DNA from: Mariprofundus sp.
GTDB lineage: Bacteria; Pseudomonadota; Zetaproteobacteria; Mariprofundales; Mariprofundaceae
Length of the DNA stretch: 50,202 nt
Reading direction: 5' to 3'
NCBI GenBank assembly: GCA_030951025.1
Contig: JAUZQK010000141.1
Span: forward strand, 1 to 50,202
In this document: piece after piece, positions 8,449 to 20,317 of the stretch
Layout of the letters: each line of letters starts with the position of its first letter
Numbering within the stretch: position 1 is the stretch's first letter
Notes under the pieces: model-generated
The model's database searches: none
Told to the model about the DNA's origin: nothing
Seen by the model: the letters and a program-made list of their open reading frames with translations, nothing else
Translations under genes and position numbers: made by a program

Positions 8449-10698
8449 TTACAGTGTTTTTCCATCATCAAAGCGATCCAGGTTCATCACTTTTGTCCAG
8501 GCTCTGATAAAATCATGCACGAACTTTTCTTTCGAGTTATCAAAGGCGTAAACCTCTGCAACCGCCCGTAACTCCGAGTTAGAGCCAAAGATCAGATCCA
8601 CAGATGTTGCTGTCCATTTGTGTTGACCCGTTTTCCGATCATAACCTTCATAAACACCTGCCGCGTTGGCTGACTGCTTCCACTGCGTAGACATATCCAG
8701 CAGGTTTACAAAAAAGTCATTGCTCAGCGTTCCCGGCCTGTCGGTAAAGACCCCATGTCCGGATTGCCCGTAGTTCGCATTCAACACACGCATACCGCCA
8801 ATCAGAACAGTCATCTCGGGCACGGACAAGTTGAGCAAACCAGCTTTATCGACCAGCATATCCGTTGGTGAACGGTAGCTGTGTTTGCTGAAATAATTCC
8901 GGAAGCCATCGGCTGCAGGTTCAAGCACGGCAAACGACTTTACATCGGTTTGTTGCTGCGATGCATCCGTACGCCCCGGCCTGAACGGAACGGCAACGTC
9001 ATAACCTGCTTGCTGCGCTGCTTGCTCAATCGCAGCAGCCCCACCGAGGACAATCATATCTGCCAATGACACCTGTTTGTTGCCAGCCAATGAAGCATTG
9101 AACGACTTTTGGATATCCTCAAGCGTTGCCAGCACCTTGGCCAGCTCTGTCGGACTGTTGGCAGTCCAGCCTTTTTGTGGTTCCAGACGTATGCGTGCGC
9201 CATTTGCGCCGCCTCGCATATCACTGCCACGGAAGCTGGAAGCCGATGCCCAAGCAGTTCTGACCAGTTCAGGCACACGCAATCCTGATGCAAGAATACT
9301 GAGTTTGATCTTAGCCATGTCTTTGCTATCGATTAATTTATAATCGATAGCTGGAACAGGATCCTGCCAAATCATCGTCTCATCCGGCACATCGGCACCA
9401 ATATAGCGCGCACGCGGCCCCATATCGCGGTGGGTCAGCTTAAACCAGGCGCTGGCAAATGCATGTTCAAACGCTTCCGGATGTTTCTGAAAACGCATTG
9501 CAATGGCTCTAAAGTCCGGATCGAATTTCAGCGCCAGATCGGTGGTAAACATGATTGGCGCATGACCTTTAGCCTTAACATGCGCATCCGGCACCGTATT
9601 GGCGGCAGATTTATCTGTTGGTATCCACTGGCTAGCACCGGCAGGGCTTTTGCTCTGCTGCCAATCGAAGTTGAATAGATTATCCAAATACATGGTTGTC
9701 CACTGCGTTGGAGAGGCAGTCCATGCGCCCTCCAAGCCACTGGTTACGGTATCTTCGGCATTGCCTTTACCACACTTGTTTCTCCAACCGAAACCCTGCT
9801 CTTCCATGGCTGAGGCGGCAGGAGCTGCGCCCACGCACTTGGACGGCTTATGTGCGCCATGTGCTTTACCAAAAGTGTGACCGCCTGCGATGAGCGCTAC
9901 AATCTCTTCATCATTCATCGCCATGCGGCCGAAGGACTCACGAATATCCGCTGCTGCAGCCAATGGATCAGAATTGCCGTTCGGCCCTTCCGGGTTGACA
10001 TAAATCAGCCCCATCTGAACAGCAGCCAAGGGTTGCTCCAAAGCTCCATCTTTACTATGCCGTTTATCATCCAGAAATTTACTCTCAGAGCCCCAGTAAA
10101 CCAGATCAGCCTCCCAGTCATCCTCACGCCCTCCAGCAAAACCAAGGGTCTTGAAACCCATGTTTTCCATCGCGACGTTACCGGACAAAATCATCAAGTC
10201 GGCCCATGAAATGCCTTCCCCGTACTTTTGTTTGACAGGCCAGAGCAAGCGCCTTGCCTTATCCAGGTTGCCATTATCCGGCCAGCTGTTGAGCGGCTCA
10301 AAACGCTGTTGCCCGCCACCAGCACCACCGCGTCCGTCACCTGTACGGTACGTACCGGCGTTATGCCATGCCAGACGAATAAAAAATGGCCCGTAATTCC
10401 CGTAATCGGCCGGCCACCAGTCTTGAGATGTGGTCAACAAGGTGTCGATATCTTTCTTCACAGCCTGCAGATCCAGCTGTTTGAATGCTGCTGCATAATT
10501 AAAATGCTGCCCCAACGGATTGGATGCAACACTGTGCGCTCGCAGTGGACTTAAATTGAGTTGTTCGGGCCACCAGAATTGATTTGTTCTGGCTTCACCC
10601 TTCGTATCGCTAACAGGGTCTGCTATGCTGATCGCTGGCAAGGATAGGGGTATCAACGCTGCCAGCGTCATGCTTATGATGAGATTACGTGTTTTCAT
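8449..10698 (-). CDS. katG: Catalase-peroxidase with signal peptide (periplasmic KatG)
   Basis: This 749-residue heme enzyme breaks down hydrogen peroxide by catalase and peroxidase reactions. The distal pocket motif [12 protein letters not shown], the proximal-histidine motif [10 protein letters not shown], and [11 protein letters not shown] and [10 protein letters not shown] (the Tyr and Met of the Trp-Tyr-Met adduct) are all present, as is the second duplicated half. The first 26 residues form a clear signal peptide ending ISIA. The enzyme should therefore work in the periplasm, unlike the usual cytoplasmic KatG. An AAGGAG precedes the ATG. oxyR is divergent, and an OxyR-type site lies in the shared interval, so peroxide induction is expected. 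Confidence 0.96.
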
Positions 10699-10853: not shown

Positions 10854-10866
10854 AATGGAGGTGGCG

Positions 10867-11745
10867 ATGAATTTACGTGAAATGTCATACCTGGTTGCCG
10901 TAGCTGATTTGCATCATTTCAGCAAAGCGGCCGAACAGTGCAATGTCAGTCAACCGACCCTGAGCACACAAATAAAGAAAATGGAACAATGGCTCGGCAT
11001 AAAAATCTTCGAGCGCAATAATAAGCGTGTCATGATTACTGAAGCCGGGCGAGACATCATACAATCGGCAAAAAAAATCCTGCAGGAAGTGGAGCGCATC
11101 AAAGAGATTGCCGAATGTTCGCAGAACCCTCTGGCCGGAAAATTCCGGCTTGGCGCATTTCCGACCCTGTCCACTTATGTATTTCCGAGCATTGTGCCGC
11201 AGATTAAAGCGCTCATGCCAGATCTGCGCCTTATTCTCATCGAAGATAAAACCTCTGCCTTAATGGAAAGCCTGCACCGAGGCGATATTGATGCAGCACT
11301 GTTTGCACTGCCGCTGCATGATGATTTTTTTGAGGTCAAAGCGCTGTTTGACGACCGCTTTTTCCTGGCCGTTCCGCCGAACCACCCCCTGGCAGAGCAT
11401 ACTGAAATAGCCGTGGAGGCGCTTGCCAGTTACCGTTTATTATTGTTGGAAGAAGGGCATTGTCTGCGGGATAACGCTCTGGAGATTTGTCAGCAACACA
11501 ATATTGCAGAAGAACAGGATTTTCGAGCCACCGGTCTTGAAACGCTGCGTCAGATGGTGATGGCCGGTACCGGCATTACCCTCATGCCGGAAATCGCCAT
11601 CAATGCGCACGAAACGGGCATACATTACATCCCCTTTACGGAGCCAACACCATACAGAAGCATAGGACTGGCTTATCGAAAAACATCAACAAAAAAAGAA
11701 ATCATTCAACACGTTGAAGACGTATTGAAAAGCTTCCATCGCTAA
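10867..11745 (+). CDS. oxyR: Hydrogen peroxide-sensing regulator OxyR
   Basis: This LysR-type activator is 292 residues from the ATG at 10867, which has GGAGG five bases upstream (an in-frame ATG at 10855 lacks this). An N-terminal helix-turn-helix (HHFSKAAEQCNVSQPTLSTQIKKME) is followed by the sensor domain. The redox motif EEGHCLRDNALEICQ puts the two cysteines at 199 and 208, exactly the disulfide positions of E. coli OxyR. Oxidation by peroxide links them and switches the protein on. Divergent katG and the intervening site are the obvious target. Confidence 0.95.
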   Translation: MNLREMSYLVAVADLHHFSKAAEQCNVSQPTLSTQIKKMEQWLGIKIFERNNKRVMITEAGRDIIQSAKKILQEVERIKEIAECSQNPLAGKFRLGAFPTLSTYVFPSIVPQIKALMPDLRLILIEDKTSALMESLHRGDIDAALFALPLHDDFFEVKALFDDRFFLAVPPNHPLAEHTEIAVEALASYRLLLLEEGHCLRDNALEICQQHNIAEEQDFRATGLETLRQMVMAGTGITLMPEIAINAHETGIHYIPFTEPTPYRSIGLAYRKTSTKKEIIQHVEDVLKSFHR

Positions 11746-12933: not shown

Positions 12934-13749
12934 GTGGCAGTATATGCAGTAGGGGATATTCAGGGCTGTTATAAGCAGCTCAGGAAGTTGCTTAAAAGAG
13001 TAAAGTTTAATGCCGCCAAGGATACGCTCTGGTGCGTTGGCGATCTGGTGAATCGTGGCCCTGATTCGTTGAAAACAATACGTTTTCTTAAAGATCTCGG
13101 TGATGCATGTGTGTGTGTGCTGGGCAACCATGATTTGCATTTGTTGGAGCTTGCTGCAGGAGCTTCGAGTTCTCGCAGTGATACCTTAAAACAGGTGATT
13201 GATGCGCCGGATTGTAAAAAGCTGATCAAATGGCTGCGTTTTCGCCCCTTGTTGCATCATGATGCCAGTCTGCGCTGGACGATGGTGCATGCGGGGCTGC
13301 ATCCAGCTTGGACATTGAAACGCGCAATAAACCGGGCTAAACATGTAGAAAAGAGATTGCGTGGAAAAGGCTGGAAAGACTTTTGTCGGCAATTGAATCA
13401 GGTGAAATTTCCGGTGCGTAAGCCGTATAAGGGTAGAAAATCACGGGCGCTGTTTAGTGTGGCTGTGATGACACGCACGCGCTATTGCACCAGTGACGGG
13501 GCATTTAGCTGGAGTGTACGCAGCGGTAAAAGTAGAAAATATCGTGATAAACCCTGGTATGCGCATAAACGTGCCAAATGGCAGCGCCGAACTAGTGTGG
13601 TGTATGGTCATTGGGCTGCTCAGGGTTTGGTAACCGATCAGCCGCATGTGCTGGGGCTCGATAGTGGTTGTGTTTGGGGCAATACCTTAACCCTGGCGCG
13701 ATTGAGAAAGGGTGGTCGGTTTAAAATTGTAGCTCAGGTTGGTGCTTAA
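12934..13749 (+). CDS. apaH: Symmetrical diadenosine tetraphosphatase ApaH
   Basis: The 271-residue protein (E. coli 280) has the metallophosphatase motifs GDIQG near residue 8, GDLVNRGPDS near 37 and GNHD near 66, plus a late GHWAA. It hydrolyses Ap4A symmetrically to two ADP and can remove nucleoside-tetraphosphate caps from RNA. The GTG start is placed nine bases after rdgC. The C-terminal half is unusually rich in Lys and Arg (for example RTRYCT, RSGKSRKYRDK), but this is within the family's range. Confidence 0.93.
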   Translation: MAVYAVGDIQGCYKQLRKLLKRVKFNAAKDTLWCVGDLVNRGPDSLKTIRFLKDLGDACVCVLGNHDLHLLELAAGASSSRSDTLKQVIDAPDCKKLIKWLRFRPLLHHDASLRWTMVHAGLHPAWTLKRAINRAKHVEKRLRGKGWKDFCRQLNQVKFPVRKPYKGRKSRALFSVAVMTRTRYCTSDGAFSWSVRSGKSRKYRDKPWYAHKRAKWQRRTSVVYGHWAAQGLVTDQPHVLGLDSGCVWGNTLTLARLRKGGRFKIVAQVGA

Positions 13750-13769: not shown

Positions 13770-15170
13770 TTAATCGTTTTCTGCTGAATAATGAAACTGT
13801 TCATCGGCATGCAATCGTAAACAGTTTTTACCTGCTTTCTTGGCCTGATAGACAGCCAAATCAGCCAGCTTGAGTAAGGTTTTGGCATCCAGGGTTTCAG
13901 CTGATTGTGTGGCCATGCCAATCGATACTGTGATGTTGAGCTCAGGCGCATCGCTGAGGCTAATTTCTGCAATGTGTTTGAGTATACGCAGACCGACTTG
14001 TTCGATGTGCTGTCCGCTCAATGAATCGGACGGTAACAGAACAATAAATTCATCACCACCATAGCGGGCACACACATCATAATCGCGAATGCTGCGGGCG
14101 ATGCTGTTGGCGATTTCCTTGAGTACGACATCACCCATGGGGTGACCATAGTTGTCATTCACATGTTTGAAGTCATCGATATCAATAAAAGCACAGCTCA
14201 GGGTGGAAAACTTATTGCGTTGAATGCGGCTGACTTCCTGTTGTAGTTGTTGATCAAAATAACGGCGATTGTACATGCCTGTGAGCGCATCATTGATGGC
14301 CATGTGTTCCAGATGTTTGTATTGCTGCAAGGTTTTGGCGGCTGTATTCAAATGGATGGATGACATATTCAGGCTGGTACGTTGTTCCCGGTCCAGCTTA
14401 TCGGGCACATGCATCAATAGGGCGGCGATGATTTGATTCTGATGCCAGAGTGGCAGGATCAGATTGTAGGAAATGCGATCATCGCCAATGGGTTGTTTTA
14501 GAAGTTTAAAGCGATGATGCTGTTTAAGCTCGTGACATATATTTTGAGTCGCGTTGATGATGTGTTCATCGCAGTCTGGTTTTGCCTCACCATTTGTATG
14601 TACGATGCTGCCGCTAGCATCATCATTAAAAACCATCACCAGCCCGTAGCTTGTGTGCAAGAGCCTTTCCAAGCTTAACAGCGATGTGTGCATAATATCA
14701 GCCAGTGACGGATGATTTTCCAACTGGGTGGTGATCTCAAGCATACTATCGAGTAAATCCAGCCGTGCATTTTGTGAGTGGATAGTTTTTTTGTGTTTCA
14801 ATTGTTTGGCTACAAGATCAAAGACGAGCTTGGCTGATTTGCCTGCAATCAGTTCGATTTGGCGGGCTGCTAAATCTGTTGCGATGGCATCGCCCATCGT
14901 CTGATCACCGGTGACATCGATTACGATATCACCGTTGAATGCCTGTAAAGCTTGTTTTCTGTCGATTGAGGTGTGGATGCCCAAGCTGTTGGCCAGCGGA
15001 AATGCAATGGCGTGTTGATGAATATCGACAATGCTGTGAATGGCAATCCAGTCGTAATGTTGTAACGCATCAAGCATGGCCAAGCCGCCGCGTCCAGCAC
15101 CGAGGATAAGTAAATTCACCTGGTCGGCATTGTTGGCAACGCTGGCCAGTGCTGAGACTGTTTTTTGCAT
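13770..15170 (-). CDS. Diguanylate cyclase with Rossmann-like NAD-binding and GAF domains
   Basis: The 466-residue protein has three parts. Residues 18-125 form a Rossmann-like domain with GAGRGG at 24-29 and DIVIDVTGD near 81-89, resembling NAD(P)-binding or CoA-binding folds. Residues about 145-285 look like a GAF sensor. Residues 290-455 are a GGDEF cyclase with an intact active-site GGDEF at 371-375. An allosteric RDYD inhibitory site (RxxD) lies exactly five residues upstream, so it should make c-di-GMP and be product-inhibited. It begins eight bases after the xthA stop, so the two form an operon. The N-terminal fusion suggests control by a dinucleotide or redox state; this is inference. 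Confidence 0.85.
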   Translation of the reverse strand: MQKTVSALASVANNADQVNLLILGAGRGGLAMLDALQHYDWIAIHSIVDIHQHAIAFPLANSLGIHTSIDRKQALQAFNGDIVIDVTGDQTMGDAIATDLAARQIELIAGKSAKLVFDLVAKQLKHKKTIHSQNARLDLLDSMLEITTQLENHPSLADIMHTSLLSLERLLHTSYGLVMVFNDDASGSIVHTNGEAKPDCDEHIINATQNICHELKQHHRFKLLKQPIGDDRISYNLILPLWHQNQIIAALLMHVPDKLDREQRTSLNMSSIHLNTAAKTLQQYKHLEHMAINDALTGMYNRRYFDQQLQQEVSRIQRNKFSTLSCAFIDIDDFKHVNDNYGHPMGDVVLKEIANSIARSIRDYDVCARYGGDEFIVLLPSDSLSGQHIEQVGLRILKHIAEISLSDAPELNITVSIGMATQSAETLDAKTLLKLADLAVYQAKKAGKNCLRLHADEQFHYSAEND

Positions 15171-15177
15171 GGTTTGT

Positions 15178-15999
15178 TTATTGCTCTACTTCTGAAGCAG
15201 AATGATCATCGAATATAGCTGTGACAGGGGCATGATCCGAATACCAGCTATCGGTGAATACGCTGACTGATTGAGCTTTGGCAGCAATTGCTGGGGTGCA
15301 CATATGATAATCGATACGCCATCCCACATTGTTGGCGCGGGCTTGGCCTCGGTTAGACCACCAGCTGTATTGTTCTTTTTCCGGGTAAAGCTGACGCAGG
15401 ACATCGCTAAAGCCTGCTTTGATCCATTGATCAAACCAGGCACGCTCTTCAGGTAAAAAACCGGAGTTTTTCTGGTTGCCGCGCCAGTTTTTCAAATCAA
15501 TGCGCTGGTGGGCGATATTGATATCACCGCAGACAATCAATTCACGACCATCGTTTTTGAGCCGTTTCATTAAGGCAAGAAAGCGTTCCAAAAAAGTCAT
15601 TTTGATGGCTTGGCGCTGGCCTGAACTGGAGCCAGATGGAAAGTAAACGCTGATCACGGATAGGGTGGTACCATTGGGCGTTAAAAAATCAGCCATGACA
15701 AAACGACCTTCAGCATCCATATCTGACCAGTCGGTGTCTGGATCGAGTTCAGAGAGACCGATATATACGCCTGTCGGTTGTAAACGTGAATACAGAGCGA
15801 CGCCGGAATAACCCGGCTTTTGGGCAAAATGATAATGATGGAAATAATTGTCTGGCGCGGCTTCGGGCGGAATCTGATGGGCATGCGCCTTGAGCTCTTG
15901 CAGACAGAGGAAATCGGCATCCTGATCGCCAAACCAGTCCCAAAAGCCTTTTTTGCTGGCGGCACGAATACCATTCAAGTTGGCAGTGATAATTTTCAT
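15178..15999 (-). CDS. xthA: Exodeoxyribonuclease III
   Basis: The 273-residue product is an exonuclease III/AP endonuclease that cuts DNA at abasic sites and removes 3' blocking groups. Motifs in order: NLNGIRAA near the start, LCLQELKA with the metal-binding Glu near residue 35, the VCGDINIAH Asp/Asn pair, and YSDHAPV with the catalytic Asp-His near the end. ATG 15999 (MKIITANLNG) is chosen over a start seven codons upstream because it gives the canonical N-terminus. It sits between the flagellar operon and the diguanylate cyclase and is transcribed with the latter. Confidence 0.94.
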   Translation of the reverse strand: MKIITANLNGIRAASKKGFWDWFGDQDADFLCLQELKAHAHQIPPEAAPDNYFHHYHFAQKPGYSGVALYSRLQPTGVYIGLSELDPDTDWSDMDAEGRFVMADFLTPNGTTLSVISVYFPSGSSSGQRQAIKMTFLERFLALMKRLKNDGRELIVCGDINIAHQRIDLKNWRGNQKNSGFLPEERAWFDQWIKAGFSDVLRQLYPEKEQYSWWSNRGQARANNVGWRIDYHMCTPAIAAKAQSVSVFTDSWYSDHAPVTAIFDDHSASEVEQ

Positions 16000-16077
16000 C
16001 CAGCAATTATGACATTGCACATTATAAGTGCAAAAAAGACAGTGTGGTTGCGAATTGAATCTGCCTCCTGATCGTCA

Positions 16078-16860
16078 CTAATTGCCGCCCAGGTGACGCA
16101 GGAATAATGGCAACTGGCCGGAGAGGTCAACGAAAGCATCACCCATGAGATAAATCATGGCTGGCATGCCAAGTGAAAAGGTGAGCAGACCGAGCCCGAC
16201 GGTGAGTGGGAAGCTGACAAAGAACACCTGAATTTGAGGTACGGCTCGCGCCAATAAGCCGAGTGCAATATATACAAACGTGAGCAACAACATGATCGGT
16301 GCAGCAAGCTTTAATGCCAGAATAAACATGCGGGCAGCAGCATCGGTTAAATCGGTAAAGGCTGAAAAATGCCATTGCTGATCGATTGGAAAGAGGGTGA
16401 ATGAATCGATTAAGGTATGAATGAACATGTGATGGGCACCGACAATCACCCACAGCAGCATGGCCAGGGTCATGGATAGTTGTGAGAGAATAGATTGTTG
16501 ACTGCGGGTGACAGGATCAAAGACATTGGCCACGGTCATGCCCATTTGAAAGCTCATCAATTGGCCTGCAAACTGAGCGGCGGTAAAAATCAGCTGGGCA
16601 AACAGGGCAAGTGCTGCAGCAATAAGCATTTCCTGCAAAGCGATGGCGGCAAAGGCGATAGGCTGGAGCGGGATATTGGGCACTTGATCCTCTACCAGCG
16701 GATAAATCAGCAGGCTGATCAAGATAATCAAGCCGACTTTAACTTGTGAAGGGATGAGTTGATGTCCGAGCACGGGCAATAAAATCAGCATCGTACCAAC
16801 ACGCAATAACACCAATAGGGCGACGCTAATCTGCTGTACATCAAACCAGGGGAAATCCAT
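16078..16860 (-). CDS. fliR: Flagellar export gate protein FliR
   Basis: The 260-residue inner-membrane protein has about six hydrophobic helices and the FliR pattern: LRVGTMLILLPVLGHQLIP near the N-terminus, and QMGMTVANVFDPVTRSQQS in the middle. FliR forms the export gate with FliP and FliQ at the base of the flagellum. It is the last gene of the leftward operon motA-motB-motB-fliL-fliM-fliN-fliO-fliP-fliQ-fliR. flhB, which often follows fliR, is absent here; xthA comes next. Confidence 0.95.
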   Translation of the reverse strand: MDFPWFDVQQISVALLVLLRVGTMLILLPVLGHQLIPSQVKVGLIILISLLIYPLVEDQVPNIPLQPIAFAAIALQEMLIAAALALFAQLIFTAAQFAGQLMSFQMGMTVANVFDPVTRSQQSILSQLSMTLAMLLWVIVGAHHMFIHTLIDSFTLFPIDQQWHFSAFTDLTDAAARMFILALKLAAPIMLLLTFVYIALGLLARAVPQIQVFFVSFPLTVGLGLLTFSLGMPAMIYLMGDAFVDLSGQLPLFLRHLGGN

Positions 16861-16880
16861 TAATCGATCATCCTTGTTGA

Positions 16881-17150
16881 TTAATTGGTAATGGTGGGAA
16901 TCATATTAAAAATATCACGGGTGAATGAAACCAGGCGTTCGGTCATCCAGGGTGCGGCAAGAATAACGGCGGCAAAGACGGCGATGATTTTGGGTACAAA
17001 GGTCAGCGTCATCTCTTGAATCTGGGTAACGGCTTGAAACAACGAGATGGCAATACCCACCACCAAAGCAACGATCAGCATGGGCAGCGAAATAAATAAT
17101 ACCATCTTGACAGCTTCACTACCGAGTTGAATAACAAAATCGGGACTCAT
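16881..17150 (-). CDS. fliQ: Flagellar export gate protein FliQ
   Basis: The 89-residue protein has two transmembrane helices. The sequence VGIAISLFQAVTQIQEMTLTF between them is the family's most conserved stretch. Length matches FliQ of other bacteria (about 89). It packs around FliP in the flagellar type III export gate. fliP lies 63 bases upstream and fliR 20 bases downstream. Confidence 0.95.
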   Translation of the reverse strand: MSPDFVIQLGSEAVKMVLFISLPMLIVALVVGIAISLFQAVTQIQEMTLTFVPKIIAVFAAVILAAPWMTERLVSFTRDIFNMIPTITN

Positions 17151-17213
17151 GCTGTATAACCAAGCAATAGTATGGCACGTTGGGGGTGGTGGAAAATGAA
17201 ATTTAACACGGCA

Positions 17214-17978
17214 TTACATCTTGAAACTGGCAAGCAGATTGGCTGTGATCAAATGCCAGCCATCAACCAGCACAAACAGAATAATTTTTAACGGCAACGA
17301 AATCATCACCGGCGGCAGCATCATCATACCCATACTCATCAATACACTGGCCACGACCATATCGAGAATGACAAAGGGCAGGTAAATTAAAAAGCCAATT
17401 TCAAACGCTGTGCGCAGCTCTGAAATGACAAAGGATGGAATCAATACATGCAGTGGAATATCAGTAGCTTCGGCTGGTTTTTCTAATTTTGCGGCATCGA
17501 GGAACAAGATCAAATCATCTTCTCGGGTTTGTTTGATCATGAATGCGCTCAACGGTTCGATGGCGCGATCAACTGCCACAGATTGGGTAATTTCTTCGTT
17601 GAGATAAGGCGTGAGTGCATTGCTATCAATTTTTTCCCATACCGGCATCATGATGAACAGGGTAAGAAATAAGGCGAGGCCAACCAGAATTTGATTGGGG
17701 GGCGATTGCTGGGTGCCCATGGCCTGACGCAGAAAGGCAAAGACAATGAGAATCCGGGTGAAGGAAGTCATCATAACCAGAATTGAAGGTGCCAGAGTGA
17801 GGATGGTCATCATGGCAATGATTTTCAGGCCGGTGAACCATGCGTCCGGATCTTCACTATCACCAAGACTAAATGACAGGGTGGGGATATCACCGGCATA
17901 AGCTGAGACAGGTAGCCATATAGCGATGCAAAATAATACGAACAGGATAGGTTGTTTGAATATGCTCTGGGCTTTCAT
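17214..17978 (-). CDS. fliP: Flagellar export gate protein FliP
   Basis: The 254-residue product starts with a signal peptide (cut near SAYAGD), as FliP proteins do. Conserved blocks include MMTSFTRILIVFAFLRQAMGTQQSPP written as two parts, TSFTRILIVFAFLRQA and GTQQSPPNQ, and the C-terminal LPFVILDMVVASVLMSMGMM. Five FliP subunits with FliQ and FliR make the secretion pore. Its start overlaps the fliO stop by four bases, implying coupled translation. Confidence 0.96.
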   Translation of the reverse strand: MKAQSIFKQPILFVLFCIAIWLPVSAYAGDIPTLSFSLGDSEDPDAWFTGLKIIAMMTILTLAPSILVMMTSFTRILIVFAFLRQAMGTQQSPPNQILVGLALFLTLFIMMPVWEKIDSNALTPYLNEEITQSVAVDRAIEPLSAFMIKQTREDDLILFLDAAKLEKPAEATDIPLHVLIPSFVISELRTAFEIGFLIYLPFVILDMVVASVLMSMGMMMLPPVMISLPLKIILFVLVDGWHLITANLLASFKM

Positions 17979-18301
17979 TCTTGTTTGGCCTTTGTGTGTT
18001 GATTGAGGACTTTCTCGTGCTTTTTATGTTGCTCTAGTTCGTGTTCCTGAGCATGGTGCAATTGCACCATGCCACTGGGTGATAAACCAAGCAGGTAATG
18101 TTGCTCTTTGTGACGGATTTCGACGATGCTGTTTTTACTGTCAATGTGGAGGCGCTGAATGATTTTAAAATCACCATGCAGCGGCCCACCCTGATGCAGG
18201 TTCAAGCGCCTGGCTGCCCAAACCAGCAGGGCGAATAGTCCTAACACAAACGCTAGCCCCAGCATCGATTGAAGTACCATGGATAACATGCCGGTTTGCA
18301 T
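17975..18301 (-). CDS. fliO: Flagellar assembly protein FliO
   Basis: The 108-residue protein has one N-terminal transmembrane helix (MLGLAFVLGLFALLVWAARR). A short cytoplasmic beta domain follows with IQRLHIDSKNSIVEI and YLLGLSPSGMVQLH, the FliO signature. The tail is rich in His, Gln and Lys. FliO helps FliP fold and assemble in the export gate. Position between fliN and fliP confirms the assignment. Confidence 0.9.
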   Translation of the reverse strand: MQTGMLSMVLQSMLGLAFVLGLFALLVWAARRLNLHQGGPLHGDFKIIQRLHIDSKNSIVEIRHKEQHYLLGLSPSGMVQLHHAQEHELEQHKKHEKVLNQHTKAKQE

Positions 18302-18318
18302 TGCTCAGATTCTCTTGA

Positions 18319-18642
18319 TTACGATGACAAGGTGTTGATGCGCGCCGAAGCGGACACCACTTCGGTGATACGAACGCCGAGTTTGTCACCGGTCGAGACC
18401 ACTTCACCCTTGGCGAATATGCTGCCGTTGGCAAGGATTTGAACTTCAGCATTGGCTTCTTTATTGAGCTCAATCACCATACCTTTATTCATACGGGCGA
18501 TTTCGTGCAAGGGCATTTTCACTCGCCCCAGCTCCACACTAATTTCCAGTGGTACATGCATAATGGTTTCAAGATTGGCTGTTTGGCCACCGCCCTGAAG
18601 ATCTGTGGTCTGGTTTTCTAATGCAGTCTGTTCATCGCTCAT
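18319..18642 (-). CDS. fliN: Flagellar motor switch protein FliN
   Basis: The 107-residue protein ends in the SpoA/SurA-like domain: VPLEISVELGRVKMPLHEIA, MVIELNKEANAEVQILANG, and FAKGEVVSTGDKLGVRITEV. FliN makes the lower C-ring that binds CheY-P through FliM and docks the export ATPase. Its start overlaps the fliM stop by four bases. Confidence 0.96.
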   Translation of the reverse strand: MSDEQTALENQTTDLQGGGQTANLETIMHVPLEISVELGRVKMPLHEIARMNKGMVIELNKEANAEVQILANGSIFAKGEVVSTGDKLGVRITEVVSASARINTLSS

Positions 18643-19631
18643 GAGATGTCTCCTTGAGAAACAGGTGTTATGATTTCTACGGCCAGCGTGCCTTCGCGTT
18701 CGCCGGCTCGGGCTAAAAACAATGGTATATCTTCAACCCATAAGGAACATGGATCGCTGATCCTTGTTTTGAGGGGCAAAAACTCGCCGGGTTTGAGGGC
18801 GAGAAAGGTACCGATATCAATTTGGCATCGACCCATTTCAACACAGACATTGGCGGATGTTTGAGAAATGCGCTGAATCAGGTTATCTGACCATTCCGAA
18901 TCGGCGCTTGTCGGCTCATCACTCACAGAGACACGCAACATTTCGAACATGGGTTCCAAAAATGAACGGGGATAATGCACACCCAGTTGTCCAGTGAGCT
19001 CATCACTTAATTTAACATCAAAATAGCTGCTGAAACATTTTTCCATGGCACCGGTGACAGCCAGGAACTGAGGATCGTGGTCGAGTTTGAATATTTGAAA
19101 ATTCAACTCATGCACAGGTTGCCATAATTTACACAGCGTTTCCCCGATTTTAACGGCAATGCGTTCACTCAAACGCAATTCGACAGGTGATAAGCTGGTG
19201 GGCTCATCAGAGGCTTCACCATCACCACCGAGCATGGCATCAACAAAAGCCACAATCAGAGCCGTATCGAAGGTGACCATCATGCGGCCATAATCTTCTA
19301 CTTCGAAAACAAAAAAAACTTCCGGGTGTTCGGTTGTAATCAGGTTTTTGTAAACAGTGCTTTCCAGCTTGTTGAGTTGAACGCTGATATCACGTTTGAA
19401 TAGCTCATCCCATTGCTCATCCAGCATTTCGACCAATCGTTCCTGCAGATTCACAAACATGGGATAACGCTCAGGACTATCTTCATCGACATGGTCGAAA
19501 TGAAAAGAATTCACCTGTTCGGGCTGTTGCATCGGGGGCAGGGATGCAAACATCGCATCGGTCTGCTCCGATGGTTTTATCTCAGCCATCAACGCTTCGA
19601 TTTCCTCCGGTGCGAGAATGGGTTCACTCAT
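18639..19631 (-). CDS. fliM: Flagellar motor switch protein FliM
   Basis: The 330-residue protein has the N-terminal CheY-P-binding peptide in the form ILAPEEIEALMAEI, a shortened variant of the usual LSQxEIDALL. A central CheC-like domain (residues about 50-230) and a C-terminal SpoA domain (about 245-325) follow. FliM transmits chemotaxis signals to rotor direction. The usual GGxG motif of the middle domain appears as DAMLGGDGEASDEPT, more typical of motile proteobacteria with polar flagella. Confidence 0.93.
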   Translation of the reverse strand: MSEPILAPEEIEALMAEIKPSEQTDAMFASLPPMQQPEQVNSFHFDHVDEDSPERYPMFVNLQERLVEMLDEQWDELFKRDISVQLNKLESTVYKNLITTEHPEVFFVFEVEDYGRMMVTFDTALIVAFVDAMLGGDGEASDEPTSLSPVELRLSERIAVKIGETLCKLWQPVHELNFQIFKLDHDPQFLAVTGAMEKCFSSYFDVKLSDELTGQLGVHYPRSFLEPMFEMLRVSVSDEPTSADSEWSDNLIQRISQTSANVCVEMGRCQIDIGTFLALKPGEFLPLKTRISDPCSLWVEDIPLFLARAGEREGTLAVEIITPVSQGDIS

Positions 19632-19682
19632 GCGACTGGCCTGTGTTGAGTTTGTTTTTGCGTTCTCATAACTGCGATACCA

Positions 19683-20201
19683 TTACTGCGATACGAAGTC
19701 AGTAAAATACAGATTTTTGATCGGCTTGCCACCCACCGCACGATTCATGCGATAAACGAGATCCTCTTTGAGGGCATATTTACCTTGTGGGGTGCGAATT
19801 TCAGAAAACTTTTTGCTCGAAAGAATGGTGATGACCAGATCATTGATTTTGATCATGTTTTCATTCACTTTAATCTTGGCTTCTTCATTGCGTACTTCCA
19901 GCTTGATTTTTGTGCGCAAAAAACGGCTTTGGTCGGTGTCTGCCAGATTGACGGTGATATTATCGATGTCCATAAATACAGGTGGCGCATCGGTTTCATC
20001 ATCAGCTTCCGGTATCGTGGTCTCATCACTTTGCTCAACCGCTGCAACGGATTGCTCGGTAGGCTGCTCCATGCTGATCAGTTTCCAGGCGACAAAACCG
20101 CCAACGGCCAAGACCAGTACCAGTAAAACGAGATTAATGATGGGTAATAAACCGCCACCACCGGACTTGCCTTTGTCTTCGCCTTCTTCGTTGTCTGCCA
20201 T
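19683..20201 (-). CDS. fliL: Flagellar basal body-associated protein FliL
   Basis: The 172-residue protein has an acidic N-terminus, a Gly-rich stretch, a single transmembrane helix (LLPIINLVLLVLVLAVGGFVAW) and a periplasmic stomatin-like FliL domain (VNLADTDQSRFLRTKIKLEV, then LVYRMNRAVGGKPIKNLYFT). The ATG at 20201 follows GGAGG; an upstream in-frame start at 20219 does not. FliL rings surround the stator and raise torque. Placement straight after the stator genes fits this role. Confidence 0.92.
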   Translation of the reverse strand: MADNEEGEDKGKSGGGGLLPIINLVLLVLVLAVGGFVAWKLISMEQPTEQSVAAVEQSDETTIPEADDETDAPPVFMDIDNITVNLADTDQSRFLRTKIKLEVRNEEAKIKVNENMIKINDLVITILSSKKFSEIRTPQGKYALKEDLVYRMNRAVGGKPIKNLYFTDFVSQ

Positions 20202-20317
20202 GTGTTCCTCCACGTTCATCGTGTGTTTGTTCGTTTATAATGATCTGTGAGACCTATCTGTTTAAAACTGTTTAATCCAATTAACCTGTTCAATCTCTTG
20301 TTGGGCTGTGGCAATGC

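Follow-up and report, generated by a model that had tools for sequence, protein, structure and literature searches.

A predicted diguanylate cyclase with a Rossmann-type front end, a putative reader of NAD status found in Mariprofundus and its relatives

The DNA stretch which we have analyzed, called the window here, has 50,202 nucleotides and belongs to the genome of a Mariprofundus sp., an iron oxidizer from the sea (assembly GCA_030951025.1, contig JAUZQK010000141.1). An open reading frame on its minus strand (13,770..15,170, ATG start codon) codes for a 466 amino acid protein, with a Rossmann domain, a signalling helix, a GAF-like domain, a second helix and a GGDEF domain. All features of this protein given below are on the same strand. 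The xthA gene, coding for exodeoxyribonuclease III (15,178..16,020, minus strand, TIGR00633, E 1.8e-72), is found 7 nt upstream, and the convergent apaH gene (12,934..13,749, plus strand, NF001204, E 2.5e-88) lies downstream. A series of flagellar genes, fliL-fliM-fliN-fliO-fliP-fliQ-fliR (16,078–20,219, minus strand), leads into xthA and the cyclase gene with short gaps: fliR is 57 nt upstream of xthA, on the same strand. The window also contains katG, coding for a catalase-peroxidase (8449–10,698, minus strand) whose apparent Sec signal peptide at the start suggests an exported form, and a divergent gene for an OxyR-like LysR regulator (10,855–11,745, plus strand). This pair is a plausible peroxide defence in an iron-rich setting.

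The window genes have been searched by tblastn at the loci of 21 orthologues, some of them shortened by contig ends. An upstream xthA is present in 11 loci, and apaH is found on the far side of the cyclase gene in many of them. No homologues of fliR-fliL appear in nine relative loci of 10–14 kb (0/9). These counts indicate that the xthA-dgc-apaH order is old, and that the flagellar junction is peculiar to this genome among the loci seen. An earlier note on this sequence had mentioned the proximity of the flagellar operon: It is found here, but is not conserved, and we have discarded it as functional evidence. The same note placed the gene in an operon with xthA, which agrees with the 7 nt spacing on a common strand; the neighbourhood of xthA is kept in about half of the orthologues. 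Promoter and terminator scans gave scores at or below shuffle levels, so the case for an operon is one of spacing and synteny.

The GGDEF domain (residues 292–449, 13,824..14,297) is clearly recognized by PF00990 (E 4.6e-46, 157 bits, with a cut-off of 23.8). The active-site GGDEF motif (residues 371–375, 14,046..14,060) is invariant in the 21 orthologues, as are R362 and D365 of the RDYD inhibitory site (RxxD, 14,076..14,087), placed five residues ahead of GGDEF. The complete site described in the earlier note is therefore present and conserved. From the Pfam score and the motif, the protein is predicted to be a diguanylate cyclase, and the position of RxxD predicts that it is regulated through the I-site. 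NCBIfam models for PleD-like and other cyclase families also match, they cover the GGDEF domain only and we have not accepted these identities.

Two helices join the domains in the full-length model. The signalling helix (residues 111–152, 14,715..14,840, assigned by DSSP) has 42 residues, is continuous with the last Rossmann strand and reaches into the GAF-like domain; a second helix (residues 261–292) connects this domain with GGDEF. The GAF-like domain itself (residues 156–253, 14,412..14,705) has alternating strands and helices with GAF topology in the model, but its Pfam match is below the cut-off (PF01590, residues 156–276, E 0.014, 16.4 bits, cut-off 22.4), so the GAF assignment proposed earlier stands on topology and falls short in the family search.

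No Pfam domain is called at the N-terminus of the window protein, which is missed by the NAD models, and a PDB search with the single sequence gives no significant match. An AlphaFold2 model of residues 1–131, obtained with a 47-sequence alignment, has a mean pLDDT of 87, with 91–98 in the Rossmann core. The order of its elements is strand 18–23, helix 27–36, strands 42–48, 66–68, 82–85 and 106–109, and helix 110–130. Among solved structures, the best Foldseek matches are the NAD domains of acetaldehyde dehydrogenases (E 1.7e-5, rmsd 1.8); next come WlbA with NADH and Gfo/Idh enzymes with NAD+. Several of the top structures were solved with NAD(H) bound. The acetaldehyde dehydrogenase NAD domains are also first in the PDB sequence profile search (E 7.9e-7, range to 2e-5), with weaker matches to Rex (E 0.015) and to formyltransferase and ribosomal S2 folds. 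Residues 18–109 (14,844..15,119) have been assigned to a Rossmann-type dinucleotide-binding domain from these three analyses. As modelled, it presents the features of an NAD(P)-type Rossmann fold: a parallel beta-alpha-beta core, a glycine loop and an acidic residue after strand 2. The central suggestion of the earlier note, a c-di-GMP enzyme with a dinucleotide-binding domain at its front, is thus backed by the model, the fold and profile searches and residue conservation. Structure prediction, proposed there as a check, gives the Rossmann fold, and the motifs predict a pocket, so that at these two levels the refuting outcome named in the note has not appeared.

We have also considered whether the domain belongs to a known dehydrogenase family. 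Some relatives with the same N-domain match the Gfo/Idh/MocA model PF01408 at E 0.0009 to 3e-5 (13.7–25.2 bits), near or below the cut-off of 24 in nearly all cases, and the window protein has no match; membership has been rejected. The acetaldehyde dehydrogenase family has been rejected as well, the likeness is limited to the NAD domain and is followed by the helix, GAF and GGDEF. In fact, the full-length model has no dehydrogenase catalytic domain after strand 5, the helix and the GAF-like domain are found there instead. Since the Rossmann part has no such catalytic domain behind it, a sensor is the best reading.

Conservation has been counted in the 47-sequence N-domain alignment, which includes members down to 19–25% identity. 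In the glycine loop GAGRGG (GxGxxG, residues 24–29, 15,084..15,101), G24 is present in 47/47 sequences, and G26 and G29 in 43/47 each. D49 (15,024..15,026), directly after strand 2 (residues 42–48), is found in 47/47 and A60 is invariant too. T87 (45/47) is part of the DVTGD loop after strand 4 (residues 85–89, 14,904..14,918). The GAGRGG and DVTGD motifs are those which the earlier note had pointed out. Classically, NAD binding is recognized by a GxGxxG motif together with an Asp after strand 2. In the model, the D49 position would be expected to bind the adenosine ribose hydroxyls, as in proteins using NAD rather than NADP. The profile search against the PDB aligns D49 with a Gly which precedes the acetaldehyde dehydrogenase Asp by two residues; as the two Asp residues are not aligned, the preference for NAD over NADP is deduced from position in the secondary structure. 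The segment E106-IAGKSAK corresponds to a region near the nicotinamide in dehydrogenases of this type.

The N-terminal 131 amino acids alone are enough to find the orthologues, with E values down to 3e-50. Of 299 genomes searched within the phylum, 77 have N-domain matches. The window's own genome is one of them, and has a second copy in a direct Rossmann-GGDEF fusion of 295 amino acids. The search for the same architecture in other genomes, also proposed earlier, has thus given many relatives with several different outputs: GAF-GGDEF, direct GGDEF, PAS-GGDEF, GAF-histidine-kinase-REC(-GGDEF) and small MCP-signal proteins. The GAF-HisKA-HATPase-REC-GGDEF form has about 1014 amino acids. The MCP-signal forms (215–290 amino acids), found in other families of the phylum, are the most divergent (19–25% identity) and the glycine loop is gone from some of them, so these forms may bind a different ligand. 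In a quick tree of the N-domain (few columns, midpoint root), the sequences group mostly by architecture: Zetaproteobacteria and the Sideroxydans order both have the direct-GGDEF and PAS-GGDEF types, the GAF-GGDEF type is found only in the window's own order. The same domain is placed ahead of GGDEF, PAS-GGDEF, GAF-HK-REC(-GGDEF) and MCP outputs, as would be expected for an input module. Judging from these sequences, the N-domain is a recurring input module, beyond a single fusion.

Some of these relatives deserve a separate mention. The hybrid histidine kinase of about 1014 amino acids (L033:635-3676; L150) has a Rossmann domain, GAF, two REC and a terminal GGDEF. It is found in several Zetaproteobacteria, and a copy of about this length exists in Mariprofundus ferrooxydans PV-1. 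Soluble MCP-signal proteins of 214–284 amino acids (L038-L042, L046, L047) have a divergent Rossmann domain, in some cases with no glycine loop.

The distribution of the domain has been studied in one genome per species, covering 84,980 species. A scan with the window protein as sole query gave no relatives. With conserved peptides from nine relatives we have detected 76 loci, 57 of them labelled Mariprofundus, Ghiorsea, Mariprofundaceae or Zetaproteobacteria. The other 19 correspond to Sideroxydans, Gallionellaceae, Ferrovum myxofaciens, Nitrosomonadales, one Betaproteobacteria and eight Proteobacteria MAGs. All named loci belong to Zetaproteobacteria, Gallionellaceae/Sideroxydans, Ferrovum or Nitrosomonadales; the peptides are of Zetaproteobacteria origin, so more distant carriers would escape. 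The named genera are known iron oxidizers.

At the level of the order, 349 genomes have been sampled, with a Sideroxydans as the centre. Carriers of the N-domain (E below 1e-28, open frame of at least 288 amino acids) are 15 of these genomes, and the 12 carrier loci which have been fetched all contain GGDEF (12/12). We have looked for the motif of the Cyc2 cytochrome, an iron oxidase (PMC8406198), with a pattern verified on two motif-bearing genes before use. It is found in 12/15 carriers and in 50/334 non-carriers (Fisher p 1.1e-7), a clade-level association, as relatedness is uncorrected. The window's genome also codes for a 471 amino acid Cyc2-like protein (AIPVFARKYG..CNSCH), which matches the motif. 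It is a fused cytochrome-porin (L161:418-1833, contig C72), a marker of Fe(II) oxidation. According to these genomes, the N-domain family appears to be found mainly in iron oxidizers.

The protein is probably a diguanylate cyclase, soluble and with an NAD(H)-binding Rossmann domain as its input. This domain would come from the cofactor domain of an NAD-dependent dehydrogenase (acetaldehyde-dehydrogenase or Gfo-Idh-MocA type), deprived of the catalytic domain. There are good reasons to propose that this front end reads NAD or redox status; that NAD(H) is the ligand, that it regulates the cyclase and in which direction, we infer. Rossmann domains accept many ligands, and the enzyme might sense another small molecule, such as NADP(H), a CoA ester, a nucleotide or a nucleotide-sugar, and not the NAD redox state. 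The weaker matches to formyltransferase and ribosomal S2 folds go in this direction, and NAD specificity depends on D49 alone. Nevertheless, the best structure and sequence matches all correspond to NAD(P)-dependent dehydrogenases, and the classical NAD signature is present, which makes a different ligand rather unlikely.

We also find it improbable that the Rossmann domain is vestigial or structural, serving for dimerization or protein docking with no ligand, and that activity is controlled from the GAF domain or by a partner. Sensing by the cyclase could indeed lie in its GAF domain, there is no catalytic domain and the glycine loops are degenerate in MCP-type relatives. On the other hand, G24, D49 and T87, which belong to the ligand loops, are among the most conserved columns, and the GGDEF-only relatives, which have no GAF, retain the Rossmann domain. 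The similarity to dehydrogenases might even suggest an enzyme which still uses a redox substrate and makes c-di-GMP as a further activity. This has a very low probability, the region after strand 5 is unlike a dehydrogenase catalytic domain.

A mechanism may be proposed for the NAD(H)-binding cyclase. NAD+ or NADH would occupy the GxGxxG/D49/T87 pocket, and occupancy or redox state would alter the packing around E106-IAGKSAK. As this segment starts the signalling helix, a redox change could pass straight to the GGDEF dimer: Helix 111–152 would relay it through the GAF domain and helix 261–292, setting c-di-GMP output, with RxxD giving product feedback. Iron oxidizers make their NADH by reverse (uphill) electron flow, they deposit iron oxides through their stalks and biofilms, and c-di-GMP is a signal to settle down. 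The NADH/NAD+ ratio would report the supply of Fe(II) and O2, and could decide whether cells swim or, instead, attach or form stalks. If this ratio is sensed, attachment in iron oxidizers would be coupled directly to their energy state, and their settling in the Fe(II)/O2 gradient would become testable with one purified protein.

A broader proposal is possible, which we put forward tentatively: An undescribed NAD(H)-sensing input domain, which Zetaproteobacteria and the iron oxidizers among Betaproteobacteria have on diguanylate cyclases and on a histidine kinase, with divergent MCP relatives, may set c-di-GMP, phosphorelay and perhaps taxis from the NADH/NAD+ ratio kept by reverse electron flow from Fe(II). 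It would then be an energy-status signalling module linked to lifestyle.

The individual parts of this protein are known. We have found no description of an NAD-type Rossmann input on a diguanylate cyclase in the open-access literature searched (titles, abstracts and term counts; most subscription papers are outside this scope, and a prior description is possible), nor of the reuse of the combination as an input module. In Pfam and NCBIfam, no model is above its cut-off for the N-domain, except marginally PF01408. The closest similarity is with the NAD domain of acylating acetaldehyde dehydrogenases of the DmpF type (PDB 4lrs, 1nvm, 4jn6), which have the same Rossmann core and glycine loop, with sequence likeness over about 75–85 residues. 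Nevertheless, the cyclase has neither the catalytic domain nor the aldolase partner, a signalling helix and GAF-GGDEF are found instead. The NAD domain of Gfo/Idh/MocA proteins also has the fold in common, with near or sub-threshold matches in several relatives, but the C-terminal Gfo/Idh domain is missing and nearly all members tested are below the cut-off. At the other end of the protein, GAF-GGDEF and PAS-GGDEF cyclases (such as the bacteriophytochrome cyclase 5llw, PleD and WspR) agree with the protein in the fold of GGDEF, in its active and inhibitory sites and in the sensor linked by a helix. Diguanylate cyclases are known with sensors for light, oxygen, NO and many small molecules; the Rossmann input is absent from the Pfam and NCBIfam diguanylate cyclase models. 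The working principle, as proposed, would be that of Rex, a redox-sensing repressor in which a Rossmann domain serves as NADH/NAD+ sensor in a signalling protein, and to which the profile match is weak. Rex acts on DNA via an N-terminal winged helix, while the output of the 466 amino acid protein would be c-di-GMP.
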